Assembly (NCBI GenBank): GCA_902587755.1
Contig: CACIMN010000002.1
Location: 216,478 to 280,477, forward strand
From: an uncultured Pelagibacteraceae bacterium
GTDB lineage: Bacteria; Pseudomonadota; Alphaproteobacteria; Pelagibacterales; Pelagibacteraceae
Reading direction: 5' to 3'
Length of the DNA: 64,000 nucleotides
The notes under the pieces are model-generated. The model saw only the letters and a list, made by a program, of their open reading frames with translations, made no database searches and was not told where the DNA came from. The stretch's first letter is position 1; every line of letters begins with the position of its first letter. Of the stretch, positions 9,044 to 33,804 are shown piece after piece. The translations under genes were made by a program, and so were the position numbers.

Positions 9044-12000
9044 TTACTGATTTATCTGTGTTTCTTCAGGTTCTGAGGACTCTATTTTATCCTGCTCTGC
9101 TAAGAAATTATTATCGTCTTCTAGAGCTTTATTATTCCATCTATTTTTAATATTACCAGTACCTGCCGGAACTAATCTTCCAACAATTACGTTCTCTTTT
9201 AAGCCATTTAATGGATCGACTTTTCCTTTAATTGCAGCATCTGTTAGTACCCTTGTAGTTTCTTGGAACGAAGCTGCTGAAATAAAAGACTCAGTTTGAA
9301 GTGAAGCTTTAGTGATACCCATTAGAACTCTTTCTCCAACTGCAGGTGTTTTACCCTCTGCAGCTAATTTTTCGTTAGAATTCTCAAACTTAATCCTATC
9401 AACTACTTCACCAGGTAAATAACTTGAGTCACCAGATACTTTAACCTCAACCTTTTTAAGCATTTGTCTTAAAATAGTTTCAATATGTTTATCGTTAATT
9501 ATTACACCTTGCAATCTATAAACTTCTTGGACTTGATTAACAAAATATTCAGTTAACTCTTTAATACCTAAAATTCTTAAAATATCATGTGGCAATGGTT
9601 GACCATCTAAAAGATATTCTCCTTTTTGAATCTTTTCACCTGGGTTAAAATTAATATGTTTACCTTTTGGAATTAAATAATTTGAAGGTTCTGATCCATC
9701 ATCAGGAACAATAGATACTCTTTGTTTACCTCTTACCTCTTTACCAAAAACAACATTACCATCATTTTCTGCAATGATCGCGCTATCTTTAGCTTTTCTA
9801 GCCTCAAATAACTCAGCAACTCTTGGAAGACCTCCAGTGATATCTTTTGTTTTTGTAGTTTCCTTTGGTAATCTTGCAATTACGTCACCTGCATAAACTT
9901 TTTGACCGTCTTTAATAGATAAAATCGAATCTGGTACTAAATAATATCTAGCTTCATTATCATCAGCTTTTTTAATTACATTTCCTTTTTCGTCTCTAAG
10001 AGTAATTCTAGGTTTTAAATCAGTACTTTTTGATTGGCCTCTCCAATCAATAACTGATTTAGAAGAAATTCCAGTTGCATCATCAGTAGTTTCTTGAATT
10101 GAAACGCCATCTATTAAATCTACATAACTGGCTGTACCACTTTTCTCTGCTATAACTGGGGTGGTATATGGATCCCATTCACATATTTTAGTATTTGCTT
10201 TTACTTTGTCTCCGTTGTTGAAAAATAGTCTTGATCCATAAGCGACTTTATAAACTGCTATCTGAACTCCTTTATCATCCTCTATAGAAAGTTGGGTATT
10301 TCTTCCCATAACAATTAGATTCTTTTTAGAGTCCTCTAAAATATTTGAGTTTATTATTTTTAATGTTCCATCGCTTTTTGTTACTATTTGAGAATCTTGT
10401 TTAACTGAAGCTGTTCCTCCTACGTGGAAAGTTCTCATTGTTAGCTGCGTTCCTGGTTCTCCAATTGATTGAGCAGAAATCATTCCAATAGCTTCACCTA
10501 CATGAACCATTTTACCTCTTGATAAATCTCGCCCATAGCATGTAGCACAAACACCTTCTTTGGAACTACATGTCATTACAGAATAAACTTTTATCGATTT
10601 AACACCTGCTGCATCAATTTTATCGCAACCTGCCTCATCAATCATTTCAGTTTTTTTAATAATTACTTCGCCCGATAAAGGGTTTTTAACTTCAGCTGCT
10701 GTAACCCTTCCTAATGCTCTTTCAGATAAACTAACTACAACATTACCACCCTCCAAAATTTCAGAAAGCTCAATAAATCCAGGATCATCACATTTAACTT
10801 TGGTTATTGTTAAGTCTTGAGCTACATCACATAGTCTTCTTGTTAAATATCCAGAACTTGCTGTTTTTAGAGCAGTATCTGCCAATCCTTTTCTAGCTCC
10901 GTGAGTTGAATTAAAGTACTCTAAAGCAGTTAATCCCTCTTTAAAGTTTGAAATAATAGGGCTTTCAATAATTTCCCCTGACGGCTTAGCAATCAGACCT
11001 CTCATACCAGCTAATTGTTTCATTTGAGCAGCAGATCCTCTAGCTCCGCTATCAGCCATCATAAATACAGAATTTATTTTTAATCCTTCATTAGTTTTTT
11101 CTGTAGCAGAAATCCCCTTCATCATTTCACCAGCAACTTTATCGGTACACTTAGACCAAGCATCAACAACTTTGTTATATTTTTCACCCCTTGTAATTAA
11201 ACCTTCAGCATATTGAGTTTCATAATCTGCAATTAGTTTTTTAGTATCATCAATTAATTGAGTTTTATTTTCTGGAATGACAAGATCATCCTTTCCAAAT
11301 GAAATTCCTGCTTTAAATGCATGCTTAAATCCTAAATCTTTTAGCTGATCACAGAAAATTACAGTTGTTTTTTGACCACAAAATCTAAATACTTCATCGA
11401 TTATTTCTGAAACAACTTTCTTGGGTAATAATCTATCTACTAAAGAAAACTTAATGTTGCTGTTCTTAGGTAATAAATTTGCTAATAAAAATCTTCCAGC
11501 TGTAGAAGTATATTTTTCCATTTTTTTATTCCCTTGATCATCTACAGTCTCAAATCTTGAAATAATAGTACTATGAACATTTATTTGATCAGAGGCTAGA
11601 GCAAATTCAATTTGATCTGAATTTGTAAAATATCCAGCTGGTTTATCAGATATAGGTTCTTGTGAAAGATAGTAAATTCCTAAAATCATATCCTGGCTTG
11701 GAACAATGATTGGTTTACCATTTGATGGAGAAAGAATATTATTTGTAGATAACATTAAAATTCTTGCTTCTAATTGTGCCTCTAAACTTAATGGAACATG
11801 AACTGCCATTTGGTCACCATCAAAATCAGCATTAAATGCTGCACAAGTTAAAGGGTGTAATTCAATTGCATCTCCTTCAATCAATTTTGGCTCAAATGCT
11901 TGAACACCAAGTCTATGAAGTGTTGGCGCTCTATTTAAAAGCACAGGATGCTCTCTAACAATTAATTCTAAAGCATCCCAAACTGCATTTGTTTCTTTTT

Positions 12001-13216: not shown

Positions 13217-16200
13217 TAATTAAGCTCCACATTTAATGCTAATGATTTAATCTCTTTGACTAAAACGTTAAATGATTCTGGTATCCCAGACTCAAAATTT
13301 TCCTCACCCTTAACTATTGTTTCGTAAACTTTTACTCTTCCTGCAACGTCATCAGATTTAACAGTTAAAATTTCCTGCAATGTATATGATGCACCATATG
13401 CTTCAAGAGCCCAAACTTCCATTTCACCAAATCTTTGACCACCTAATTGTGCCTTACCACCAAGTGGTTGTTGAGTAACTAAACTATAAGGTCCGGTAGA
13501 TCTCGCATGAATTTTATCCTCAACTAGGTGATGAAGTTTTAGCATGTAAATTATTCCAACAGTAACAGGTCTATCAAATTTCTCCCCTGTTCTTCCATCC
13601 CATAAATAAGTTTGGCCAGATCCAGGCAAATTTGCTAGTTCAAGCATCTCAGTAACATTTTTTTCTTTAGCACCATCAAAAACAGGCGTTGAGATTGCGA
13701 TACCATTTTTTAAATTTTCACAAAGATCCTTAAATTCGCTCTTACTTAACTTGTCAACTTTGTCTTTAAAAATTTCTTCTCCGTAAACAGATTTTAAGAA
13801 TTTTTCAATTTTTTCTGTTCTTTCAATTTTTTTATTATTTTCATTAACTAAATTTTTAACTTGTTCTCCAAATTCTTTACATGCCCAACCCAGGTGTGTC
13901 TCTAAAATTTGCCCAACGTTCATCCTGCTTGGAACACCCAGGGGATTTAGTACAATATCAACTGGTCTTCCATCTTCTCTATATGGCATATCTTCAACAG
14001 GTACGATTTTACTTACAACACCTTTGTTTCCATGTCTTCCAGACATTTTATCACCAGGTCTTAATCTTCTTTTTATAGCAACGAATACTTTTACCATTTT
14101 CATGACACTTGGTAATAAATCATCACCACTTCTAATTTTTAAAACTTTATCCTCAAATCTTTCAGTTATGTCTTGTTTTGCCTTATTAAATTGATCTTTT
14201 AACTGTGTTAATGTTGCTTCATCATTTATATTACCTACTGTGATTTTGAAAACATCATTAATTGATAGTTTATTAATTGTGTCAAAATCTAACTTAGTTC
14301 CCTTGGATAATTCTTTTACATTTTTAGTTAAAGAGGATCCTGACAGGAATTGTGAAGCTCTTTGCTTAATACTTCTTTCTAATATTTCTTCCTCAACAAT
14401 TTTATCTTGTTGAACTTGTTCAATTTCAGCTCTTTCAATAGTTATTGATCTTTCGTCTTTCTCAATTCCATGTCTATTGAATACTCTTACATCAACTACT
14501 GTTCCACTTGATCCTCTAGACATTCTTAGAGATGTGTCTGTTACATCTATAGCTTTTTCTCCAAAAATTGATCTTAATAATTTTTCTTCAGGACCAGATG
14601 CTGAGTCACCTTTTGGAGTAACTTTACCTACTAAAATATCTCCAGCATTTACTTCTGCACCAATATAAACTATTCCTGACTCATCAAGGTTTTTTAAAGC
14701 CTCTTCATTTACATTTGGTATATCTCTTGTTATTTCTTCTTCACCAAGTTTAGTATCTCTTGCCATTATTTCATATTCTACAATATGAACAGACGTAAAT
14801 ACGTCATCAGTAACGCATCTTTCTGAAATTAAGATTGAGTCTTCAAAGTTGTAACCTTGCCATGGCATAAATGCTACGGTAACATTTTTACCCAAAGCAA
14901 GCTCACCTAATTTTGTTGATGGGCCATCTGCAATAATATCACCTGATTTTACTTTGTCTCCAACTCTAACAAGTGGTCTTTGGTTAATACAAGTATTTTG
15001 ATTTGATCTTTTAAATTTTTGTAGATTATATATATCTACACCAGACTTACTAAAGTCTGTTTCCTCAGTTACTTTAATTACAATTCTTTTACCATCTATC
15101 TTATCAACGACACCATCACGTTTAGCAACAATAGTTACACCTGAATCTAGAGCAACATCACTTTCTATACCTGTGCCAACAAGTGGAGATTCAGGCTTCA
15201 ACAATGGAACTGCTTGTCTCATCATATTTGATCCCATCAATGCTCTATTCGCATCATCATTTTCTAAAAATGGAATTAAGGATGCTGCAACCGAAACTAA
15301 TTGTTTTGGTGATACGTCAATATAATCAATTGAATCAGGTTTAGCTAAAAGAAAGTTTAGATTTTGTCTGCATGAAACTAACTCCTCAGTAATTTTACCA
15401 TTTTTATCAAGTTTTGTATTTGCTTGAGCAATTGTAAATTTAGTTTCTTCCATTGCTGATAAGTATTCAACTTTATCTTGAACAACACCGTCTTTTACTT
15501 TTTTATAAGGGCTTTCAATAAAGCCATACTTGTTTATTTTTGCATATGTAGATAAACTGTTAATCAAACCAATATTTGGACCTTCAGGCGTCTCAATTGG
15601 GCAAATTCTTCCATAGTGAGTTGGATGGACATCCCTGACTTCAAAACCTGCTCTTTCTCTTGTTAAACCTCCCGGACCTAATGCGGAAACTCTTCTTTTA
15701 TGAGTAATTTCAGATAAAGGATTTGTTTGATCCATAAACTGAGATAGTTGTGAACTTGCAAAAAAATCTTTTAATGAAACTGTTAATGGTTTTGCATTAA
15801 TTAAATCTTGTGGCATTGCTGACTCAACATCTAAAGTTGTCATTTTTTCTTTGATAGCTCTTTCCATTCTGTAAACACCAATTCTAGCTTGATTTTCAAC
15901 TAATTCTCCAACAGAACGAACCCTTCTATTACCCAGGTGATCTATGTCATCAACTTCATCTTTACCATCACGTAAATCCAACATTTTGTGAATTATTGCT
16001 ATGATATCATCATTTCTTAATATTGTTATTTTGTCTGAACATTCTTGATTTAACCTTGAGTTCATTTTTACCCTACCAACGTCTGACAAATCATATCTAT
16101 CTGAGCTAAAAAAAAGATTATTAAATATTTGTGTAGCTATCTCTATAGTTGGTGGCTCACCAGGTCTCAACATTTTATAGATTTCTGTGATTGCTTCGTC

Positions 16201-23644: not shown

Positions 23645-24415
23645 CTAACTAGTCTCTCTTCTAATTTGTTCAATTTTAATCTTTTTTTGTAGACTTCTAT
23701 TTTTGTCATAAAGAAGGTTAAACTTTATTTTATTATTAGTTTTAATTACGATTGATTTAGCGTTTCTTACTTCTAAATTATCTGCTACTGCACTAATAGG
23801 TCTCTTAGATGGGTTTAAGTTGGTTATGACTATTTTTGATTTATCATTTACAATTTTACCCTTCCATCTTCTGGGTCTAAATGCACTTATTGGAGATATT
23901 GATAGTTTTTTTGAATGAAGACTTAAAATAGGTCCATGAACTGAAAGATTATAAGCTGTACTTCCTGCTGGAGTTGATACAAGCACACCATCTGAAACTA
24001 ATTTTTTAATTATTTGTCTTGAACCTTGTTTAATTGATAATGAAGCTGCTTGTCTGCTTTGTCTCAGTACAGAAACTTCATTTATTGCTATTGATCTTTT
24101 AATTAGATTATTTTTATTCTTAACAATCATTTCTAAAGAAGAAATTGAAACCAAATTTGCTTTTGATAAATTTTTAATAATATCTTTTGAGGAAAATTTA
24201 TTCATAAGAAAACCATAATTCCCTGAATTAATTCCATAAAAATGTTTTATAGAGTTTTTATTCTTTTTAAGTGTTTGAAGCATAAAACCATCTCCACCAA
24301 TCACTATAATAAGATTCTCTTTTTTAAAATTACTAGACTTAATTTTTTTTAATAATAAATTTTTAATCTTTGACGATTTTTTATTTTTATCTGAAATAAT
24401 TTGAAGTTTACTCAT
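23645..24415 (-). CDS. nadK: NAD kinase
   Basis: 256 residues. The GGDG motif is at residues 40-43 (IVIGGDGFML), followed by GINSGNYGFLMN and the TPAGSTAYNLSVHGPIL block that binds NAD. The enzyme phosphorylates NAD to NADP with ATP or polyphosphate. The ATG lies only 4 nt from the CCA end of a tRNA-Leu 3' half, so before the island arrived nadK probably sat directly downstream of an intact tRNA-Leu and shared its transcript. The Lys-rich second quarter is shorter than in enterobacterial NadK (about 290 residues). Confidence 0.9.
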   Translation of the reverse strand: MSKLQIISDKNKKSSKIKNLLLKKIKSSNFKKENLIIVIGGDGFMLQTLKKNKNSIKHFYGINSGNYGFLMNKFSSKDIIKNLSKANLVSISSLEMIVKNKNNLIKRSIAINEVSVLRQSRQAASLSIKQGSRQIIKKLVSDGVLVSTPAGSTAYNLSVHGPILSLHSKKLSISPISAFRPRRWKGKIVNDKSKIVITNLNPSKRPISAVADNLEVRNAKSIVIKTNNKIKFNLLYDKNRSLQKKIKIEQIRRETS

Positions 24416-24419
24416 TTAA

Positions 24420-24475
24420 TGGTGCCCTCGGCCAGACTCGAACTGGCACTCCGCAAGCGGCAAGGATTTTAAGTC
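24420..24475 (-). pseudogene. tRNA-Leu(TAA) 3' half (left island boundary)
   Basis: 56 bp identical to the 3' part of the intact tRNA-Leu at 25667-25752, from the encoded CCA through the T-arm and variable arm to the anticodon loop (ttttaagtc on the plus strand). After that the sequence diverges abruptly (tactcccgttg), so the 5' half, D-arm and acceptor partner are missing and it cannot fold as a tRNA. This is the junction expected when an element integrates at the anticodon loop: the chromosomal 3' half stays next to nadK. Call it attL-like. Confidence 0.9.
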
Positions 24476-24535
24476 TACTCCCGTTGTCATTCGCCAAGTC
24501 AATTCAAGCTTTTTAATTTTTTTCATTTTTTTTCA

Positions 24536-24571
24536 GTGCACATTAATGCACATTTTTGTGCATTAGTGCAC
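24536..24571. repeat. Imperfect palindrome of TGCACA units in module 1
   Basis: GTGCACATTAATGCACA, a TTTT centre and TGTGCATTAGTGCAC form an imperfect inverted repeat, and TGCACATT recurs at a 10-bp period on the left arm. It lies between the tRNA 3' half and the stop of the module 1 gene. It could be a bidirectional terminator without T tract or a recombinase arm-type binding array; the second fits the similar arrays in modules 2 and 3. Confidence 0.55.
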
Positions 24572-24601
24572 ATTGTTTTAGTTGGTAGTTGTAGGTAGAC
24601 C

Positions 24602-24630
24602 ATAAGTCCTTCACGTCTACCAAGTTCATA
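24602..24630 (-). repeat. Degenerate tRNA-Leu 5'-half remnant
   Basis: Plus-strand ataagtccttcacgtctacc followed by aagttcata resembles the 5' half of the tRNA-Leu (ttaagtcctttgtgtctacc then aatttcacc), with about five substitutions. It also forms a hairpin with ggtagac at 24594-24600. It may be an old attachment-site copy left by an earlier insertion, or an attP-like site. The similarity is short, so chance is not excluded. Confidence 0.4.
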
Positions 24631-24644
24631 AATCATATAAATTC

Positions 24645-25649
24645 CTATAAACTCACTTTATATTGTAATGGTGTGAGATTAAAATTTTCCTCAACACTAC
24701 CTTTTTTCATATACATCTTACCTATCATTTTTTCAGGTAAAAATTCGTAAACTCTGTAGATATAAAAATTTTTTTTGTTTTCTTTAGAAAAATTTAATTC
24801 ACCAGGGCTAATATAAAAATCTGTACCAATTGGACCCTTTGTTGTCTTAACCTCAATAAATCTCTCTGTACCATCTTCATTGTAAGATAAAATATCATAA
24901 CCAGCAGAGTCATTTGATAATGAAACATGTTTTATTTTATCTATTAATTCTTCTTTATTCATCTTTTGTAATCTTTCTTTTTCATAATCCATTATATACA
25001 GCTCACCTTTATCACCTATGTCTTTAAGTTTTTTATCTGACTCGGGATTGTTAAAAACCTTCAATTGTTTAAACTTATCTCTTTTAACCCCTTCTCTTTT
25101 CTTCTTTGTCTTTTTTTCAGGAGCATCACTAACTATAAATTTCTCTTGCTGGACTTGCTTTTCAATGTTCAGACCAGTTTCTAATTTAATATCGAGTTCA
25201 TTCAGTAAGGCTTCATCAATTGGCCAATTCATTAACTGCCAATTAAAGTTTACTGGCTCATTATCTTTTCCACTGTCCTCATCGTGATTTAAGTATTTAA
25301 GTGTCCCTAAATAGTAGTAATCTTGATTTGTATTAGCTCTATAAAATAAAAAAATATTATTACTTACTTCATCATGATTTATTAAATCTATAATCTTTTG
25401 TGTTTTTAAAGTATTCTTTGGTTGTGATTGCCATCTGAAAACACCATCTTCAGTAAAACCTTCATCAAACTCATGTTCACCTACAACAGTTCCTGCTGTA
25501 ACCATGAAAACAAAATCATTTGAATTTTCTACTCTAACTAATCCTTGTAGACCCCAAGTACCAGCAGACTTTATAAATTTTGTGTTAGGTGAAAGAGTGC
25601 CATGAATTTCTTCACGACTATATGAACTGTAGAGCTCAAGCTTTTTCAT
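24645..25649 (-). CDS. DUF3427-DUF3883 protein (predicted PD-(D/E)XK nuclease-like)
   Basis: 334 residues from the ATG at 25649. A longer frame reaches 25703, but its first 18 codons are tRNA-Leu sequence, so that start is rejected. Residues about 5-145 match the DUF3427 pattern (SYSREEIHG, DGVFRWQSQPKN, NFNWQLMNWP), usually seen at the end of helicase/endonuclease proteins. A Lys-rich linker is at 178-195. Residues about 210-305 match DUF3883: GDKGE (E216), SAGYDI (D252) and FIEVKTTKG (E266, K268), the layout of a PD-(D/E)XK nuclease fold. There is no helicase domain. It is the only cargo of module 1; a defence or DNA-processing role is plausible but inferred. Confidence 0.7.
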   Translation of the reverse strand: MKKLELYSSYSREEIHGTLSPNTKFIKSAGTWGLQGLVRVENSNDFVFMVTAGTVVGEHEFDEGFTEDGVFRWQSQPKNTLKTQKIIDLINHDEVSNNIFLFYRANTNQDYYYLGTLKYLNHDEDSGKDNEPVNFNWQLMNWPIDEALLNELDIKLETGLNIEKQVQQEKFIVSDAPEKKTKKKREGVKRDKFKQLKVFNNPESDKKLKDIGDKGELYIMDYEKERLQKMNKEELIDKIKHVSLSNDSAGYDILSYNEDGTERFIEVKTTKGPIGTDFYISPGELNFSKENKKNFYIYRVYEFLPEKMIGKMYMKKGSVEENFNLTPLQYKVSL

Positions 25650-25666
25650 GTTAGTAGATTTGTGTG

Positions 25667-25752
25667 TGGTGCCCTCGGCCAGACTCGAACTGGCACTCCG
25701 CAAGCGGCAAGGATTTTAAGTCCTTTGTGTCTACCAATTTCACCACGAGGGC
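25667..25752 (-). tRNA. tRNA-Leu(TAA), intact copy inside the island
   Basis: 86 nt, class II. The acceptor GCCCTCG pairs perfectly with CGAGGGC, the anticodon stem AAGGA/TCCTT closes CTTAAAA (anticodon TAA), and the long variable arm, T-arm GCCAG/CTGGC and encoded CCA are all present. It is the only complete copy in the window and therefore probably the functional gene. Its upstream DNA differs from that of the two 5' halves at 27217 and 32864, so it uses a promoter brought by module 2, which keeps a loose likeness (TAAACACA then AATGCCCTCG). Confidence 0.96.
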
Positions 25753-25815
25753 ATTATTTGAACTGTGTTTACTTACTTTTTTTATCATTAAAAATCAAAT
25801 TTTTTATTTATCATT

Positions 25816-25837
25816 ACTACACTAGAACTACACTAGT
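25816..25837 (+). repeat. Module 2 left repeat: two 11-bp units
   Basis: actacactagaactacactagt consists of two ACTACACTAG units at an 11-bp period. A 21/22 identical copy in the same orientation lies at 27141-27162, on the other side of the module 2 gene, and an inverted single unit at 27108-27119. The 11-bp period puts the units on one face of the helix, as expected for binding sites of a dimeric or cooperative protein. Confidence 0.75.
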
Positions 25838-25856
25838 CAAATAATCCTCTTTTTCA

Positions 25857-27077
25857 TTAAGTTGGTGAAAATATTTGCTCCATCACATAAAATAATATTT
25901 CTTGAACACCTAAATTTACAGCGTATCTAATAAATATATCCTTTTCATTAATATTCAATTGCTCTTCGGTATAAGGAGTTTGATAAGATAGACTTAGAGT
26001 ATAAAATCTAAATTGTTCATAACTAAGTATCGTTCCGTTGCCTGAACCAATTAAATTTGGACTAATATTTTTTTTATGATCACGTTTGATTTCTGATATG
26101 ACTTTTTTAAATCTTTTATCTTTAGATCCTTCAGTATATTTTGTCTTTTCATAATGAATTGCTGAAAAAAAGTCCCCTGTACCATCATATTCATACTGTT
26201 CAGAATATTCATTTTTTAGGTCATAAACATAATAGTTTTCACCTTTTAGAAATAAAAAATGAGAAAGTTTGCTTTTGTATATACTGTTTTCAATTGTATC
26301 TAATAAGTTATGACTTCTAATGCTGTCAATTTTATAAAATTTCTCATAAAAATCTGAAATAAGTTTTTTTATATATCTGTTATTATAAATTACTTTAGTA
26401 AAGTGATTAATCTTATACTTAATTATTGAGTCTGAAAATGGATCTTTTGGTTTTGCTTTTTTTTCTTCAAATGGACCGAGATCACATATAATTTTTACTG
26501 ATGCTAAAAGATAACCGTATATAAAAGCATCAGAAAAAAGTTTTTCCCATTTCTTTCCTGTTATTATTTTTTCTTGATCTGAGGGTCCTTTAAAAAATGG
26601 AATTTTTGTTTTATTACAATAACTATAATAATAATAGTTTTTTGGATTATGATTGTTGCTATAAAATGTTTGTTTACCAGGAAGAGCGTACTCTTGACCA
26701 TATTTTGTCTGTTGTTTAAACGGAAATGTTCTATCATCTTCAGATTTTTGAGGTGTTTTATCAACCGATAATTTTAATAAATTGTATATATTTTCCTTAA
26801 ATTTTTTACTTTGACCTTCGGTCTCAAACGATCCTTTTTTAAAATCTTTAAAAAATTTTTCATAAAAATGTTCTGTAATTTTTAATTTATTTCCACCCCA
26901 AGCATTATTACCTGCTGTGAAATAATTTAACTCTATCTCTCTAGCAAATGATTTTGTTACAGATTTCCACACGTCAAACTTTGCTTCAGAAATTTTAGGA
27001 GTAGTTTTTTTAATTTCTTTTTTTATTAATTCTCTTATTTTTTTATTTTTTTCCTTAATATCTTTTTCTAAAATCAT
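25857..27077 (-). CDS. Hypothetical protein, only cargo of island module 2
   Basis: 406 residues; I do not recognise a family. The N-terminus is a charged Lys/Glu helix (residues 1-30), residues about 130-170 are Tyr/Asn/Lys-rich with a YYYYSY run, and the C-terminal third is mixed. There is no signal peptide, membrane segment, zinc motif or nucleotide-binding loop that I can see, so it is probably a soluble cytoplasmic protein. It is a single gene in the same orientation as the tRNA, flanked on both sides by the 22-bp module repeats. Its place beside a nuclease-like gene makes defence a thought, not a conclusion. Confidence 0.75.
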   Translation of the reverse strand: MILEKDIKEKNKKIRELIKKEIKKTTPKISEAKFDVWKSVTKSFAREIELNYFTAGNNAWGGNKLKITEHFYEKFFKDFKKGSFETEGQSKKFKENIYNLLKLSVDKTPQKSEDDRTFPFKQQTKYGQEYALPGKQTFYSNNHNPKNYYYYSYCNKTKIPFFKGPSDQEKIITGKKWEKLFSDAFIYGYLLASVKIICDLGPFEEKKAKPKDPFSDSIIKYKINHFTKVIYNNRYIKKLISDFYEKFYKIDSIRSHNLLDTIENSIYKSKLSHFLFLKGENYYVYDLKNEYSEQYEYDGTGDFFSAIHYEKTKYTEGSKDKRFKKVISEIKRDHKKNISPNLIGSGNGTILSYEQFRFYTLSLSYQTPYTEEQLNINEKDIFIRYAVNLGVQEILFYVMEQIFSPT

Positions 27078-27107
27078 ATTAGTGTACCTAATTTATATCG
27101 TTCTACC

Positions 27108-27119
27108 TCTAGTGTAGTA
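27108..27119 (-). repeat. Inverted unit of the module 2 repeat
   Basis: tctagtgtagta is the exact reverse complement of tactacactaga found at 25815-25826. It lies 31 bp downstream of the module 2 gene start and 22 bp before the direct copy at 27141, so this end has both orientations. Confidence 0.55.
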
Positions 27120-27140
27120 AAACATTTCGTCATTCTACCA

Positions 27141-27162
27141 ACTACATTAGAACTACACTAGT
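27141..27162 (+). repeat. Module 2 right repeat: two 11-bp units
   Basis: actacattagaactacactagt matches the left repeat at 25816-25837 in 21 of 22 positions, same orientation. The pair brackets the module 2 gene and nothing else, at 20 bp from its stop and 64 bp from its start. Confidence 0.75.
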
Positions 27163-27216
27163 TCAATTTTATCAAAAAATGTTGAGTTTATTAGTGAAAC
27201 CTTAGATTTGAATACT

Positions 27217-27303
27217 TTTTAAGTCCTTTGTGTCTACCAATTTCACCACGAGGGCATTAATGAATTTCATTTGTGTTTAAGCTAATATTTATAATTGAAC
27301 AAG
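27217..27303 (-). pseudogene. tRNA-Leu 5' half plus upstream DNA, copy c (87-bp repeat)
   Basis: Bases 27217-27255 equal the tRNA-Leu from its anticodon loop to its 5' end, and 27256-27303 are 48 nt of upstream DNA. The whole 87 bp is identical to 32864-32950. The 3' half is absent (preceded by gaatac), so no tRNA can form. The duplicated upstream part probably contains the original tRNA promoter, pointing into the module 2 gene. Perfect identity suggests a recent event. Confidence 0.9.
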
Positions 27304-27338
27304 ATTAATAAGTAAAATTTTTTAATTTATCCCTCAAG

Positions 27339-27357
27339 GTACAAGTTTAGTACAAGT
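27339..27357 (+). repeat. Module 3 left repeat: two 11-bp units
   Basis: gtacaagtttagtacaagt has GTACAAGT twice at an 11-bp period. A copy with 18 of 19 matches and the same orientation is at 32719-32737. Together they bracket the two-gene cargo of module 3. The sequence differs from the module 2 repeat but the period and placement are the same. Confidence 0.75.
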
Positions 27358-27381
27358 TCTCCTATAATATCCTTAAAAAAA

Positions 27382-30300
27382 TTAATCGCCTGGATTTACT
27401 GTGACTGTTAAACCACTAGCAGCCTCAGCTTCAGCAACTGCTTTTTTATGCTCACCACATGCTGCTTCTGCTTGGCCACCTGAATTATTACATCCCCACT
27501 CTGAATTAGCGGCTGCATCTGTCAAACCTGTGTAAACAACTTTTTGACTCCCAGTTACATTTACACCTGTTCTTCCAACTATTACTGCTATTGAACCATC
27601 AGAATTTTGAACTAATTGAACAACATTCTTTTCTGCTCTTACACCTTCGACAATTTCATGCGCAGCAGCCTGAACAACTTGAGTAACTTCTTTTGCAGCT
27701 TCTGTAGCAGCTGATGAAGCGGCACTAGCAGCTTCACTTGCAGCTGATGCAACCTCCGTTGTTGAAGATGCAGCTGCTTTAGCCGCATTTACAGCATCTA
27801 CAACTTGTTGCTCAGCAGCAACTTGACCTCTCGCTTGTTCAAGCATTGCCTCAACATTTTGACCTGATGCTTTCGCAGCTTCTAATCTTGCAACAGAATC
27901 TTTCGCTTTTTGTAGTAGTGCTTCTGCACCACCCTCTTCCATAATATTAAACTTTCCACTAAAAAATTCTTTTGTAACTTCTCCTGTTGCTTCACCAATT
28001 GCACTGTCTAAGACTAAACCTTTAGTATTTACAGTAGCTGCAGCTAAAGCATCATCATAACCAAATGGCGACTCAACTCCATCGGCAATTTGTTTGTTAA
28101 AAGTTTCTAACTCCGATTTAGAAATATTAAATGCACAATCTCCTCCTGAACACATTCCACCTTGATTAATGTCCCCTGTTCTTACAAAAACATATCCTGA
28201 AGCTGCAACCTTTTTTCCTAAATCTCCACTAGGTCCACATTGATCACCACTACAAATAATTCCTCCATACAAAGCATTTCCTGTATGACTATCTATTACC
28301 TGTCTTCCAGTTTTTGGATCAATAAGTGAATAGGTTCCCTCAGTCATTTCATCAGTAGCAACGAGACCTTTTGCTGTTTCAAGACCAAACATACCTGAAT
28401 TAATTTTTTCAGCAGCTATTTCAGATAATTGTATGTTTAAATCACCTGTAGCATCAATTTTACCTACACTTAAAATTTGTTCTCTTGTTACTGCTCCAGC
28501 TAAATAGACTTGGTTACCTCTAGTAAATGTACCTACAGGAGCTTCAAAATCACCAACATCATCAGTTAAAGTATCAGTATCGACTATTCTCATTAAATCA
28601 GTTCCTTCAATTTGAACTATTGATTTATTTTCTAGTTTTGCAACAGCTTCAACAATTTTTTCATTTACATTAATTCCTGATTTAATTGCTTGTGTCATTG
28701 CAAGATCAGCTTTGATTTCAATTGCATTGTTAAGCTCTTGGTTCAATTTAGATATTTGATTTGAAATATCTGGAGTTTCAGTTTCAAGAGTTGTTAATTC
28801 ATTTGTAAGAGATGCTAATTGAGAATTAATTTCTGTTGATTGATCCTCATAAGCTTTCAATTGACTATCTAATTGAGCTATTTGACTTTCAAATTGGACT
28901 TTTAATGCATTAGCTTCATCAGTTGCTTTTCCCTGACTTTCGATTTGATTTGCAATAGTAGTTAATTGAGTATTAAGTTTAGAATCTAAGTCTGCTCTTT
29001 GACCTTCAAGTTCATTCATTTTATCACTTAAAGGATTTAATTGTTCTTGAAGTGAAGCTAAGTTTTGAGTTTTTTCAGCAATTAAACTTTCTTTAGAGCT
29101 AAATTGATTTGATAAATCACTAATCTGATTTTGAATTTCACTTTCTGAGGTTTTAAGTGAAGTTAATTCATTTTCTAATCTTGATATCTCTGTAGTTAAA
29201 TTTTTACTTTGTTCTTTAGTTAAATTTAATTCATTTGATAAACTTTCAGCTTTTGCGTTTAAAGCATCGATAAGAACATTACTTTCACCAAATACACCTT
29301 TTAATTCACCCTCAAGTTCTGCTCTGTTTGCTGTATCAAGAGCTAAAGGATCATTGTAATATGCGTTTATGTATTCAAAGTCATCTACAAAGCCATATTT
29401 TTTAGATCTAACAATAGCTGCTGTTTTAATATTTGAAGCTTCCCAATATGGTCCTGTCATATATTCACTAACAGGTTTTTCTCCAAGCTCACCTAATTCT
29501 TTTAAAGCCATTTCTACAGCATAAGATTCATCTAAATTTCCATTGCTAGCAATATCTACTAATTTTGCTCTTAGCTTAACTGGATCTAAATCTGCAACAA
29601 AATCAGCATCATCCTCAAAAGTTGGTATCTCTTTTAAAATACCACTGATTTTACTTTTATATTCGCTTAAATCTTTGGATTCCTCGGCAACAATTTGTTC
29701 ATATTGTTTTTTAGCATCTTGAACAGCGTTAATTAAATTATCCCTTGCTTGTCTTGTTGCATTATTTTTAATTGACGAAATTTCATTATGTAAATTATTT
29801 ATCTTATTTATATTTTGAAAAGTAGGATCCTCAAAGGTTGCAAATCTTTCATAAAACATATTAATTCTTTGATCAACTAGGTTCTGCCTTTTGTTAACCC
29901 AGTTAGAATTTCCCCAATCAGGATTGGAGTTAAGTTGACTTATTTGGCTTTCAATATCTTGAAATCTTGCTGTAGCATCTTGAATTTGTTTTTCATATTC
30001 AGCATATAATTGATCTCTATTTTTATCAAAATCATTTATTTCTCTCTGTAATTCAGCTATCTGATTTTGTTTTATTCCTATTTGCTCGTTGTCTATCAAT
30101 TTTTCAACTTCTTTATTTATTGCCTCAAACTCTGGTGTTCCAGGTGTTCCTGATCCATAATTAAATAAATATGTTCTAAGATTTCTAATTTGATCTAAAT
30201 CTTTTGTTTTTTCTTTTATGTTTTCATTAATTTGTTGTTTTACATTATTTAATTCTATTGAAGCATAAACAGCTTCTTGGATAGCTCTATCTTCTGCTAC

Positions 30301-31830
30301 AATTACATTTATATCTCCATCTGTAATTTTATTAAAATACCAACCATCAGGTAATATTGCTTGTGGATTTTTTTCTAATGCTTTGTAGATTTGTTTTGTA
30401 ATTGATTTTTGTTTATCCCAATCATCATTTTCAATTGCAGTTAATCCTTCATTAATAAAATCTTGAGAAAAACCAACTAATTTTGAGTATTTTTCAAGTT
30501 CAAAAGCTCTATATTGTTTTGGATCTGGATTTAAAATAGCTTGTACTTCTCTAACTGCATACTCGGCTTGAATATCATAGTTATCTGCATTTACGTTTCC
30601 TAATGCAGAATAGTAATATTGAAACGCTTCAACTTCTTTGTCTAAAGCTCTATCAAAATCTCTTTGAGCAAAGTCTCTCTGCAAAGTAACAGTTTCTAAT
30701 TTTTCATTTAATTCATTTAATTTTCCACCTAAATCAGTATTTTTTAATTGATCTAATTCTAATTCTTTTTTTGAAAATATACTTTGATTTACTGATAGTT
30801 GTTCATTTAAATTTTTAATATTATTCTGCAATTGAGACTTAGATGCAATATCATTAGCCAATTCTAAATTTAAGCCTTGAACCTGTTCTTGAAGTGAATT
30901 TGATTGTTCTTCAGCTGTTTTTATTTGATTTGTAAGATCACTTAATTGACTATTAAATTGATCTGCTAACTCTTTACTTTTGTTGATTTCCTCATCAGAT
31001 AAAATTGTTGAAGATTGTTTTAAAATCTCCTCATTATATTTAGCTAAAAGATCAGTTTTTTGATTTTTTAGATCTGTGATTTGACCTGATAAAGGATCAA
31101 TTTTTGTTTGTAGTTCATTTAATGAATTTTTTTTATCTAGAATTTCTAAATTATTAGCCTGAAGTTTTTGTTCAAGTGTTGAGATATTTGTATTTATCTC
31201 GTCATCAGAAATTATTTGTTTACCATCATCTGTAAGAATGTCACCTTTCCAAGAATTTGCCCATTCTTCTTTAGTCCAAGTTGACATTTCTTTTTTCTTT
31301 TCAACAGCGATAGCAACATCAATGGTCTCAATACCAATCTGATCTAGTGTTTCAACTATTCCAAAAGCATCTAATCCTTCCTCACTGATATCAACCATAC
31401 CTGAAATTAAATCATTTAATTTTTCTTCTTTTACTTCTTTCATCTCTGCAGTGATTTCATTCACAATTTTCATATTTTCTTCACCAAAGCTTCCCATATC
31501 TGCTTTTGACATATCTGATGAAAATTCTTGGGGCACTAATGCGTTAGTACCAGCTAATGATTTTTCGATAAATTCTAAAGCTTTAATAGCACTCTCTTCA
31601 TTACCGTCCTCTAAAGATTCTTTTACAAATTCAGTTACTTTATCTATTTGCTCAAAAGCTTTATCCATTTTAACTGCTTCAATAACTTCGCTTGTATCAA
31701 CATCATTAAAATCTTTTTTAGCAGCATCAATTGAATCAACAATATCTCTTAATTCCTGATCAAGTGCTATTGATGGATTGGAAAAAAATAAAAATAATAA
31801 TGTTAAAAAATATAAATTAATTTTTCTCAT
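27382..31830 (-). CDS. Giant secreted coiled-coil protein
   Basis: 1482 residues. A Sec signal peptide is likely at residues 1-22 (hydrophobic LYFLTLLFLFF, then SNPSIA before LDQ). Two long heptad regions lie at about 215-390 and 855-1040. They contain an internal duplication: about 237-345 resembles 923-1034 (KIDPLSGQITDLKNQ against QLNPLSDKMNELEGQ, and ADQFNSQLSDLTNQIK against KVQFESQIAQLDSQLK). A globular part at about 1060-1290 has paired cysteines C1193/C1198 and C1227/C1232 in CSGDQC and CSGGDC. An Ala-rich helix covers about 1300-1395 and the tail has C1447 and C1458. It overlaps the upstream gene by 4 nt (ATGA). Family not recognised; likely a periplasmic or surface fibre. Confidence 0.75.
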   Translation of the reverse strand: MRKINLYFLTLLFLFFSNPSIALDQELRDIVDSIDAAKKDFNDVDTSEVIEAVKMDKAFEQIDKVTEFVKESLEDGNEESAIKALEFIEKSLAGTNALVPQEFSSDMSKADMGSFGEENMKIVNEITAEMKEVKEEKLNDLISGMVDISEEGLDAFGIVETLDQIGIETIDVAIAVEKKKEMSTWTKEEWANSWKGDILTDDGKQIISDDEINTNISTLEQKLQANNLEILDKKNSLNELQTKIDPLSGQITDLKNQKTDLLAKYNEEILKQSSTILSDEEINKSKELADQFNSQLSDLTNQIKTAEEQSNSLQEQVQGLNLELANDIASKSQLQNNIKNLNEQLSVNQSIFSKKELELDQLKNTDLGGKLNELNEKLETVTLQRDFAQRDFDRALDKEVEAFQYYYSALGNVNADNYDIQAEYAVREVQAILNPDPKQYRAFELEKYSKLVGFSQDFINEGLTAIENDDWDKQKSITKQIYKALEKNPQAILPDGWYFNKITDGDINVIVAEDRAIQEAVYASIELNNVKQQINENIKEKTKDLDQIRNLRTYLFNYGSGTPGTPEFEAINKEVEKLIDNEQIGIKQNQIAELQREINDFDKNRDQLYAEYEKQIQDATARFQDIESQISQLNSNPDWGNSNWVNKRQNLVDQRINMFYERFATFEDPTFQNINKINNLHNEISSIKNNATRQARDNLINAVQDAKKQYEQIVAEESKDLSEYKSKISGILKEIPTFEDDADFVADLDPVKLRAKLVDIASNGNLDESYAVEMALKELGELGEKPVSEYMTGPYWEASNIKTAAIVRSKKYGFVDDFEYINAYYNDPLALDTANRAELEGELKGVFGESNVLIDALNAKAESLSNELNLTKEQSKNLTTEISRLENELTSLKTSESEIQNQISDLSNQFSSKESLIAEKTQNLASLQEQLNPLSDKMNELEGQRADLDSKLNTQLTTIANQIESQGKATDEANALKVQFESQIAQLDSQLKAYEDQSTEINSQLASLTNELTTLETETPDISNQISKLNQELNNAIEIKADLAMTQAIKSGINVNEKIVEAVAKLENKSIVQIEGTDLMRIVDTDTLTDDVGDFEAPVGTFTRGNQVYLAGAVTREQILSVGKIDATGDLNIQLSEIAAEKINSGMFGLETAKGLVATDEMTEGTYSLIDPKTGRQVIDSHTGNALYGGIICSGDQCGPSGDLGKKVAASGYVFVRTGDINQGGMCSGGDCAFNISKSELETFNKQIADGVESPFGYDDALAAATVNTKGLVLDSAIGEATGEVTKEFFSGKFNIMEEGGAEALLQKAKDSVARLEAAKASGQNVEAMLEQARGQVAAEQQVVDAVNAAKAAASSTTEVASAASEAASAASSAATEAAKEVTQVVQAAAHEIVEGVRAEKNVVQLVQNSDGSIAVIVGRTGVNVTGSQKVVYTGLTDAAANSEWGCNNSGGQAEAACGEHKKAVAEAEAASGLTVTVNPGD

Positions 31831-32690
31831 GATTTATCTTTAGTTGATTTTTTTTCCTCAGCTCTTTCCTCTAGTTTTTTCTTTAAATTAGATATTGTTG
31901 CTTTATAAATATCAAGTTTATCTTGTCTGTCTTTAATATCTTTATTAACTGTAATATTGTTGTCAGTTGGAACACCCATTTCTAAAAATTCTCCTAACAG
32001 CCAAAATTTTTGAATAGCCTCTTTGACTGGTGTATCCATGTCCATACCAAGAGCCTTTCGCATATTTTTTCTTCCATCATTCATTCCAAATAAAGATCTA
32101 ATTGCATCTTCGTCTCTTTTCTTTTTTGAAAATAATCCTTTCTTATAATCATCTTCTTTAAATCTTTTAATCGCTTTTCTAGTGTCGTATAATCTTGATG
32201 CATAGAACACTTCATACATAGCCATTGATTTGATCATTTTTCCTGGATACTTTTGACCCCAAGATGGGCTTTTGCCAAAATTACCCCACATGTAGGATCC
32301 TGCTTTTTGACCAACACATTTCATTCCTTTTCCACATCCTACAAATTTTTTTAACATTCCTTCTGTATAAAAAGATTTATCGAACTTAATTATTTCACCA
32401 AGTTCCTCTATTTTTTTTAAAGTAATTTCATCTTTATCTTTATCTTTTTTACCAAATAATTTTTTGTCATTGGTTTTTTTGCTTTTTATAGAAAATTTCT
32501 TTTTGGTATTACTTTTTTTCTCTTTTGTGGGATTTTCTAAAAATTCTATTGATTTTTCATATTCTACTTTTGAAATTCCACCAGCTTCATAGATTTTTTT
32601 TAATTCTTCTTTTTTTTGATCAATAGTTTTTGCAACTGCACTAAAAGATATTAAGACTGACACAATTATACAAAAAACAAATTTTCGCAT
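31827..32690 (-). CDS. Secreted Lys-rich protein with SHOCT-like N-terminus, partner of the coiled-coil protein
   Basis: 287 residues. Signal peptide at 1-20 (FVFCIIVSVLISFSAVA before K). Residues about 25-50 (KEELKKIYEAGGISKVEYEKSIEFL) resemble the short SHOCT helix pair. A Lys-rich linker at about 53-90 follows, then a compact region with FVGCGKGMKCVGQ (two Cys) and aromatic GSYMWGNFGKSPSWGQKYPGK, and a basic C-terminal helix. It overlaps the 1482-residue gene by 4 nt, which implies coupled translation and a shared job outside the cytoplasm. No known function. Confidence 0.7.
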   Translation of the reverse strand: MRKFVFCIIVSVLISFSAVAKTIDQKKEELKKIYEAGGISKVEYEKSIEFLENPTKEKKSNTKKKFSIKSKKTNDKKLFGKKDKDKDEITLKKIEELGEIIKFDKSFYTEGMLKKFVGCGKGMKCVGQKAGSYMWGNFGKSPSWGQKYPGKMIKSMAMYEVFYASRLYDTRKAIKRFKEDDYKKGLFSKKKRDEDAIRSLFGMNDGRKNMRKALGMDMDTPVKEAIQKFWLLGEFLEMGVPTDNNITVNKDIKDRQDKLDIYKATISNLKKKLEERAEEKKSTKDKS

Positions 32691-32718
32691 AAGAAATAAT
32701 ATTATTTTATCTTTCTAA

Positions 32719-32737
32719 GTACAAGTTTAGTATAAGT
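32719..32737 (+). repeat. Module 3 right repeat: two 11-bp units
   Basis: gtacaagtttagtataagt matches 27339-27357 in 18 of 19 positions, same orientation. It lies 28 bp upstream of the start of the 287-residue gene and so brackets the cargo pair. Confidence 0.75.
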
Positions 32738-32816
32738 CTGCACAAATTAATTAAGACTTATTTTCTAAACTTAATTGAAAGCCAATTTAAAATTGGGAGA
32801 TTTTAAAGGATGTTTA

Positions 32817-32846
32817 GACTACCTTGGACTACCACGGACTGACTCA
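32817..32846 (+). repeat. Three 10-bp GACTACC-type tandem units beside the right boundary
   Basis: gactaccttg, gactaccacg and gactgactca follow one another at exactly 10 bp. They stand 17 bp from the tRNA-Leu 5' half, inside the island. Arrays of 10-bp direct repeats near a core site are typical of tyrosine recombinase arm sites, but here this is only a resemblance. Confidence 0.5.
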
Positions 32847-32863
32847 TTTGTGAATCCCTCGGC

Positions 32864-32950
32864 TTTTAAGTCCTTTGTGTCTACCAATTTCACCACGAGG
32901 GCATTAATGAATTTCATTTGTGTTTAAGCTAATATTTATAATTGAACAAG
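32864..32950 (-). pseudogene. tRNA-Leu 5' half plus upstream DNA, copy d (right island boundary)
   Basis: Identical over 87 bp to 27217-27303. The tRNA part (32864-32902) runs from anticodon loop to 5' end. Being next to the core gene at 33001, this is the best candidate for the original upstream region of the chromosomal tRNA-Leu, attR-like. Just left of the break stands ccctcggc, which also occurs in the tRNA 3' end, so this copy may be an internally deleted tRNA, not a clean half. Confidence 0.85.
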
Positions 32951-33000
32951 GATAATATGTAAAATTGTTATTTATTTAAATATTTTATAAATATTAACTG

Positions 33001-33804
33001 ATGGAAAAAGCTTTCAAAGTTTTAATATTTACGGATCTTGATGGATCACTTCTTCATAGAGATACATTCAGATTTGATGAAATAAAAGATTATTTAAAAG
33101 AGATTATCTCTAAAGGAATTTTTATAATACCTAACACTAGCAAAACGGATAAAGAGATTCTAGAATTTAATAACGAATTAGGAATAAAAATACCTTATAT
33201 CTCTGAAAATGGAGCTTCAATTAATGGCTTAGATTTGTTAAATAAAGATTTACCTCAACAATTAATACTTAGCAGAGAAAAGGAAACTCTTTTAAATATT
33301 TTTAAAAAAACAGTTTCATCAAACCTACAAAATAAATGTAAATGGTTATCTGAAATGGATGAGGATAGACAGAGTTTAATTTTAGGTTTAAAATATCAAA
33401 AACTCAAAAGTGCTTTATATCGTAAATATACTGTTCCTTTTATATTTAACGGAAATAAAAATGAGAAAAAACAATTAGCAAAAATTTTAAAAAATAAAGG
33501 TCTTTTCTTACAAGAAGGTGGTAGAGTTATTCATTTAACCGATAGAGTGAATAAAGCTAAAGCACTTCAAGTATTTGTCAGATTTTTTAAAAAAATTAAC
33601 AAGAATGTTATAACAATAGCAGTTGGGGATAATTACAATGATTTAGACATGTTGAGAACCAGTGATTTTCCTTGCTTAGTATTCAATGATAAATTCACTT
33701 TAGATGAAATTCCTATAAATAATTTAATAACTACAAATAAGCCATCACCTGAGGGCTGGGCAGATGTGATTAAAATGGCCCTAGTTAAAATAAATAAAAA
33801 TTAA
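33001..33804 (+). CDS. gpgP: HAD phosphatase of the mannosyl/glucosyl-3-phosphoglycerate phosphatase family
   Basis: 267 residues. HAD motif I is FTDLDGSLLH with D12 and D14, motif II is IIPNTSKTDKE, and motif IV is AVGDNYNDLDML. ISENGASI follows motif II as in the COG3769 mannosyl-3-phosphoglycerate phosphatases. The next gene, 11 nt downstream, is a glucosyl-3-phosphoglycerate synthase, so the natural substrate is most likely glucosyl-3-phosphoglycerate, giving the compatible solute glucosylglycerate. The mannosyl alternative is possible from this protein alone. It is the first core gene right of the island. Confidence 0.78.
   Translation: MEKAFKVLIFTDLDGSLLHRDTFRFDEIKDYLKEIISKGIFIIPNTSKTDKEILEFNNELGIKIPYISENGASINGLDLLNKDLPQQLILSREKETLLNIFKKTVSSNLQNKCKWLSEMDEDRQSLILGLKYQKLKSALYRKYTVPFIFNGNKNEKKQLAKILKNKGLFLQEGGRVIHLTDRVNKAKALQVFVRFFKKINKNVITIAVGDNYNDLDMLRTSDFPCLVFNDKFTLDEIPINNLITTNKPSPEGWADVIKMALVKINKN

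Follow-up and report, generated by a model that had tools for sequence, protein, structure and literature searches.

The window analysed here is a stretch of 64,000 nucleotides from an uncultured Pelagibacteraceae bacterium (GenBank assembly GCA_902587755.1, contig CACIMN010000002.1, positions 216,478 to 280,477) of SAR11, which is among the most abundant groups of marine bacteria. In it, the tRNA-Leu(TAA) gene beside nadK is split at a 9-bp core of its anticodon loop by three units, A, B and C, of 1,247, 1,503 and 5,647 bp. The host flanks are nadK itself on the left (23645..24415, minus strand, Pfam NAD_kinase_C) and, on the right, a haloacid dehalogenase (HAD) phosphatase (33001..33804, plus strand, Pfam Hydrolase_3) that is called gpgP-like after an earlier sequence-only reading of this DNA. 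Four tRNA pieces lie between them where that reading had placed them, all on the minus strand. The array opens with a 3′ half containing the core (24420..24475, core 24467-24475), identical over 56 bp to the only other 3′ half in the window (25667-25722), which belongs to a tRNA-Leu(TAA) gene identified by ARAGORN at 25667..25752 (core 25714-25722), the only intact copy found. Core and 5′ half (27217-27255) with the upstream region form the left end of C (27217..27322), and a second such piece (core and 5′ half 32864-32902, whole piece 32864..32969) forms the right end of the array; the two share 106 bp at 96% identity, a likeness extending beyond the tRNA into its upstream region that the sequence-only reading had missed. 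As it had claimed, one core, TTTTAAGTC, is common to all four breakpoints, beginning at 24467, 25714, 27217 and 32864, and the outer halves when joined gave a single 86-nt tRNA identical to the intact copy. Throughout the assembly, which is 96% complete, the 5′ half was found at three places only and the 3′ half at two only (up to three mismatches); this confinement to the places of the array indicates that the arrangement is not due to chance. The repeats of 39-106 bp in the array might suggest an assembly artefact joining repeats, but many genomes that were assembled independently, single-cell ones among them, show this same layout, and we find an artefact scarcely credible.

Units B and C carry related signals at both ends. 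Unit C (27226..32872) has lambda-like ends, with the word GTACAAGTTTAGTACAAGTT on the P′ side (27339..27358), the word GTACAAGTTTAGTATAAGTC on the P side (32719..32738) and three GACT repeats at 32816..32840, all on the plus strand. Unit B (25723..27225), which brings a 5′ half with its own upstream region, bears ACTACACTAGAACTACACTAG on the P′ side (25816..25836) and ACTACATTAGAACTACACTAG on the P side (27141..27161), both on the plus strand, and its arms match at 19 of 20 positions; the B word is also given as ACTACACTAG. We delimited 55 units of this kind in SAR11 genomes. Before the core, a typical end has two words in tandem (near -147) and then GACT three times (near -50); after it follow the 5′ half, a conserved tRNA-upstream stretch and two tandem words near +83. 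Unit C has this layout, and its core-proximal arm resembles those of two integrase-bearing elements, L110 and L153, considered below. A perfect 9-mer tandem of period 11 was present on the P′ side of 38 of 53 units (49 chromosomal and four free elements), as against 0 of 53 at every other period from 7 to 16. The end words differ between units and are mostly alike within one: own P and P′ ends matched at 17 or more of 20 positions in 39 of the 49 chromosomal units, compared with 20.5% of cross pairs, and none of 10,000 permutations reached the observed mean. This pairing indicates that B and C constitute two distinct units of recombination, each with a core between arm-type repeats on both sides, as in lambda-type attachment sites. 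By analogy, the tandem 11-bp words would be arm-type sites read by the N-terminal domain of an integrase, and the GACT repeats are predicted excisionase binding sites. The possibility that A and B form a single element with an internal tRNA was rejected, as the ends of B match each other (19/20) and the repeats of A differ.

Some words are shared more widely. The B-family word ACTACACTAGAACTACACTAG occurs exactly in 7 of 399 genus genomes and is paired 0.87-1.28 kb apart in four of them, while the C word GTACAAGT is common to the integrase-less units (satellites) L045, L060 unit 2 and L157 unit 3. A 267-bp unit in L104 (849-1116) has matched ends and no open reading frame (ORF) of at least 80 amino acids, a minimum resembling a miniature inverted-repeat transposable element (MITE). 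Homologous recombination between tRNA 5′-half repeats of about 100 bp, building and shuffling arrays without any site-specific recombinase, would draw on the 39-bp repeats and conserved upstream stretch common to the units, and would agree with the unlike ends of some units and with the occurrence of the A gene in two end types (see below). It leaves unexplained, however, the paired words of 11-bp period at fixed distances, and also that units of like build with an integrase occupy this site; we consider it improbable.

The same site was compared across relatives. Matches to nadK were found in 79 of 121 genus genomes, own genome included, and to the gpgP-like gene in 36 of the 121; of the 78 other nadK-bearing genomes, 74 were taken (G042, G059, G061 and G117 were left out), which with the window makes 75 nadK loci. 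In nineteen loci, chosen for having both genes close together on one contig, the gap ranges from 187 bp up to some 25 kb (G009); G054 and G077 also have the two on a single contig, but more than 100 kb apart. The empty sites proposed as a check by the sequence-only reading do exist, in G050 (187 bp, the shortest gap) and G093 (188 bp), and the window flanks, once joined, are collinear with empty-site relatives (81.6% identity over 1,262 columns in L032, 83.2% over 1,249 in L033). ARAGORN detected the tRNA in every one of the 39 loci read first. With up to three mismatches to the 39-bp half allowed, 32 of the 75 loci contain one or more additional cores with 5′ half, giving 44 units; these counts exclude the sites of L057, L100 and L109, which have more than three mismatches, and L144, a duplicate of the L157 genome. 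In L114-L116 there is one site each with a 3′ half too diverged for the criterion, and in L101, whose tRNA is interrupted by a prophage, no site was counted. The window and L046, L060, L103, L118, L120 and L130 have an intact tRNA displaced from nadK, and decayed 3′-end remains, seen by eye, adjoin nadK in L046 and L060. Content varies widely among the 75 loci, which supplies the differing cargo expected of an insertion site and excludes an identical arrangement kept in every relative; nucleotide comparison recovered nothing beyond individual window genes or unit ends elsewhere.

The absence of an integrase from the window, also part of the sequence-only reading, held in the searches made: the sole PF00589 match of the genome, an open frame of 325 amino acids, lies outside it. 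Pfam integrase or transfer families had no match in A, B or C, ten integrase queries had none in B and C, and the integrase of L071, a candidate helper described below, had none in the window's genome. Likewise, 51 of the 55 units lack a known integrase type, and these 51 measure 0.3-6.4 kb. A chromosomal Xer-like recombinase moving the units, no helper being required, would suit a genome with one PF00589 match, but dedicated integrases are found at the tRNA-Leu site in relatives and end repeats of such a kind would not be expected of Xer, making this explanation highly improbable.

Those dedicated integrases are candidate helpers. Matches to the L071 integrase occur in 7 of 399 genus genomes (one of them weak), and an integrase of this family lies inside a unit of 7.8-10.2 kb at tRNA-Leu in G120 (AG-414-K15), G168 (AG-903-K07), AG-909-L14 and G202 (SAG-MED01); in SAG-MED01 this unit adjoins two satellites. 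No PF00589 match fell, by coordinates, inside the nadK stretches of 39 relatives, a search that can miss this type of integrase since that of L071 scores under the Pfam cut-off, and the L071 integrase had no match among 50,697 phage records. The 39-bp 5′ half is exact in 23 IMG/VR contigs. Two contigs, L071 (7,799 bases, a 99-bp terminal direct repeat) and L086 (7,972 bases, a 123-bp terminal repeat away from the attachment site), each contain a phage-type attachment site (attP) and look circular, head-to-tail copies being a less favoured possibility. L071 has matches to an integrase, a primase and a RusA-like protein; no structural gene and no conjugation gene was recognised in it. With candidate integrases at the same tRNA in relatives and with unit ends like the left and right attachment sites (attL and attR) of integrated elements, the proposal that a helper acts in trans has gained support.

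Helper and satellite words were also compared. The P′ word of L110 equals those of L035, L040 (word TGTGCTGGT) and L157 unit 2 at 20 of 20 positions; that of L153 matches L060 unit 1 (word GGTACTGGT) at 19 and L052 at 18 of 20; that of L142 matches four satellites at 19 of 20; and the best for L090 is only 15. Overall, the best satellite matches of seven helpers are 20, 19, 19, 18, 18, 17 and 15. The end words of L110 and L153 differ. Six of seven pairs of their other proteins are 91-100% identical, the remaining one, adjoining the integrase, being 63%. When the two integrases are compared in blocks of 50 columns, identity is 42-60% in each of the first three and 88-98% in every full block after these, as would be expected of a word read by the N-terminal domain.

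KT997847 (L148), the best phage match of the integrase in the G072 prophage described below, has a tRNA-Leu-like gene about 8 kb from its integrase gene and was not used as an attP; the tRNA-like gene, from record position 14653, follows a DNA polymerase gene and is 82% identical to the SAR11 3′ half. In L155 (AG-439-C21), a relative of the helper integrase (10001-11638) adjoins an apparent tRNA-Ser 5′ half ending near the anticodon, so that the helper system may use other tRNAs as well.

Unit A (24476..25722) is of a different type. It has prophage-type polarity, bringing the 3′ half rather than the 5′ half, and its junction reads core-TAC. This junction was found in 6 of 399 genus genomes, namely its own, two with prophages that are candidate helpers as well (G072 and G376) and three with mini-units (G180, G198 and G398). 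Both prophages share the A-type junction and the TGCAC repeats, which in A are TGCAC/GTGCA repeats at 24535..24572, predicted arm sites; their far ends were not reached, and they encode an integrase and a large protein, a putative terminase judged by reading its sequence. The junction and repeats held in common with prophages point to a unit of temperate-phage type, and A is likely a minimal satellite or a remnant of that type. Its cargo gene (24645..25649, minus strand, 334 amino acids) encodes DUF3427 and NOV_C domains and resembles the candidate defence family PDC-S36, which the second half of the protein matches at 9e-42. G092 has this gene at 96.4% identity, in a unit of a different end type, against 75% for nadK. 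A tRNA-like hairpin (24594..24621) just beyond the stop codon resembles tRNA-Leu from the D-arm to the anticodon part; it is kept in A-type mini-units (L176, L177 and L179) and absent from the G072 and G376 prophages.

Taken together, these data very probably describe a tandem array of three units without a recognised integrase gene at one tRNA-Leu core, each likely brought in by a tyrosine recombinase that a helper provided in trans, the helpers being of different kinds. Helpers residing at tRNA-Leu would supply the recombinase that moves the satellites, and integration would take place at the 9-bp core in the anticodon loop of tRNA-Leu(TAA). The successive insertions of the sequence-only reading thus hold up in refined form: for B and C the half restored was the 5′ one, together with an upstream region, and for A the 3′ one, which suggests more than one recombinase system at the same core. 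From the anatomy, C probably entered first, B second and A last, with B and A each landing in the tRNA that the preceding insertion had restored; an integrase-primase element like L110 or L153 would be the likely helper of C, and a temperate phage that of A.

The cargo of the units runs almost entirely one way. In the 51 units without a known integrase, 123 of 126 ORFs of at least 80 amino acids lie on the tRNA strand, and 47 of 50 ORF-bearing units of this group are strand-uniform; beyond the last core the strand ratio is 357:242. Cargo mostly begins behind the tRNA upstream region and 5′ half, with a median of about 175 bp from core to first start codon (52 units, range 5-415). Units B and C bring a 5′ half with a promoter-like stretch, and A brings a 3′ half, like the prophages. 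The strand bias suggests that each insertion leaves the cargo downstream of a 5′ half and a tRNA promoter, and that such leftover promoters would likely drive its expression.

Cargo has evidently moved between lineages, to judge from identities that exceed those of the host gene: L048 has an 831-amino-acid cargo protein with 96% identical counterparts in L065 and L122, all three with the word ACGTCTAGT, against 74-75% for nadK. That comparison bears on a reading in which the units are what is left, decayed and now fixed, of integrative elements and prophages whose integrases have gone. Such a graveyard would account for the lack of a known integrase type in 51 of 55 units, for six units whose ends do not match and for the old 3′-end remains beside nadK in L046 and L060, and cis-mobilizable elements (CIMEs) are described as decay products in the available text of PMC5704250. 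However, this near-identical cargo under the same end word, and words and spacing that are intact at both ends of most units, speak against it. So does the host-like tRNA upstream region of the satellites, which differs from that of integrase-bearing elements and means that they did not arise by simple deletion from the observed helpers. We therefore judge general decay unlikely, though it deserves some weight.

The window's own cargo is largely of unfamiliar kinds. Unit B holds one gene (25857..27077, minus strand, 406 amino acids) without a Pfam match, whose product has 52 homologs, a WGR domain being present in some of them; its confident structural model (pTM, the predicted template modelling score, 0.90) had no match in the PDB at E ≤0.001, the best being E 1.6, and the predicted fold is possibly new. 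Most of unit C is taken up by a gene for a 1,482-amino-acid coiled-coil-like protein (27382..31830, minus strand) with weak coiled-coil matches under the Pfam cut-offs; its best phage-family match, a tape-measure model over the coiled coil (E 1e-5), is likely compositional. The second C gene (31827..32690, minus strand, 287 amino acids) has no Pfam match, and relatives of its product occur in 35 of 399 genus genomes, own included, the best other at 41%. Elsewhere, units with the word GGTACAAGT in L060 (2998-8684) and L157 (14614-20166) contain many ORFs of about 175 amino acids, apparently interrelated, two pairs of which are 95-97% identical between the two loci.

A number of observations weigh against trans-mobilised satellites with a word-reading helper. 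The repeats of unit A stand on one side only. Since many words are alike, only 21 of 44 units had their own P′ as the best partner of P, ties included. Ten of the 49 chromosomal units fell below 17/20, comprising two of B type, whose arms lie nearer the core and match at 19 and 20 of 20, two bearing an integrase, and the six unmatched ones, so that some units may have recombined or decayed. Under a strict null in which satellite letters were resampled by column, matches of at least 19 arose in 4% and of 20 in 0.8% of draws, leaving single helper-satellite word pairings no more than suggestive, and the words of L142 and L071 match satellites having another type of core-proximal arm. No helper was found carrying the C word GTACAAGT, nor any helper for B; exact-pattern searches of viral contigs gave none for the C word and one contig each for B and A, with no tRNA core in the stretch examined. 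Circle-like contigs were seen only for integrase-bearing elements and none for integrase-less units. Finally, a consensus promoter scan of the array yielded fewer sites than shuffled sequence (22 versus 42.6).

Among known systems, the closest kinds are CIMEs and additive flexible genomic islands. CIMEs and tandem accretion are known, examples including the ssrA islands of Dehalococcoides, which lack an integrase (PMC5704250, PMC3146451); in the portions of these papers available, CIMEs lack integration and transfer genes, keep attL and attR, stack at one site and are thought to move with their neighbours. Both ends are likewise retained and paired in B and C, and in A the repeats lie on a single side. 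Unlike CIMEs as so described, SAR11 units commonly hold one to three genes, have end words that vary yet are mostly paired within a unit, and mostly restore the tRNA 5′ half and upstream region, with cargo almost all on one strand. Additive islands (PMC4119200, PMC7771536, PMC10872708) share the conserved tRNA target and the partial tRNA repeats that mark insertions of variable cassettes, as found here; their descriptions, as far as the accessible text goes, are without arm-type words, paired ends or helper elements.

Tycheposons (PMC10872708, PMC11389934) are also cargo elements at tRNA genes of marine picoplankton. According to the excerpts available, they span 4-200 kb and hold a tyrosine recombinase within the element (PMC10872708), whereas none was found within the window units, and 51 of the 55 units measure 0.3-6.4 kb and are without a known integrase type. 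Integron cassettes, and the clusters of attC sites lacking integron-integrases (CALINs), are in the sections available of PMC11389934 and PMC4119200 likewise small, in CALINs integrase-less, mobilised in trans and served by an outside promoter; here lambda-like ends at tRNA-Leu replace attC sites (no attC search was made). Phage satellites such as phage-inducible chromosomal islands (PICIs) and their minimalist form (PICMIs) are small and helper-dependent in the passages available of PMC11389934 (see also PMC10803314), and L071 has an integrase, a primase and a RusA-like gene with no structural gene recognised; the window units, by contrast, show no integrase. In the temperate pelagiphages HTVC105P and S35C6, core and 5′ half adjoin the phage integrase gene, and prophages with another integrase occupy the same tRNA-Leu, but both are complete phages, and what precedes their core is unlike the corresponding sequence of B and C. 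New relative to all of these are the variable paired end words and the integron-like orientation. The open literature, in the parts available, contains no description that we found of this SAR11 system, of paired variable words or of the strand bias; this coverage takes in few subscription papers and not the original report on tycheposons.

A bolder proposal, which we put forward tentatively and at barely less than an even chance, is gene capture of an integron-like kind without integrons, in which co-oriented cassettes would capture a tRNA promoter and a paired 11-bp word code would diversify together with the N-terminal domain of the helper integrase, perhaps as helpers escape satellites that copy their words. 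In the text available, a 2007 study reported no attC sites at SAR11 hypervariable regions (PMC2217521), and a 2020 study stated that the specific mechanisms of gene transfer in SAR11 were unknown (PMC7542561). The locus would offer a concrete gene-transfer machine for SAR11, made up of a tRNA-Leu landing pad, integrase-less cassettes and candidate helpers in named single-cell genomes, whose end words, readable from sequence, would predict which helper moves which cassette.

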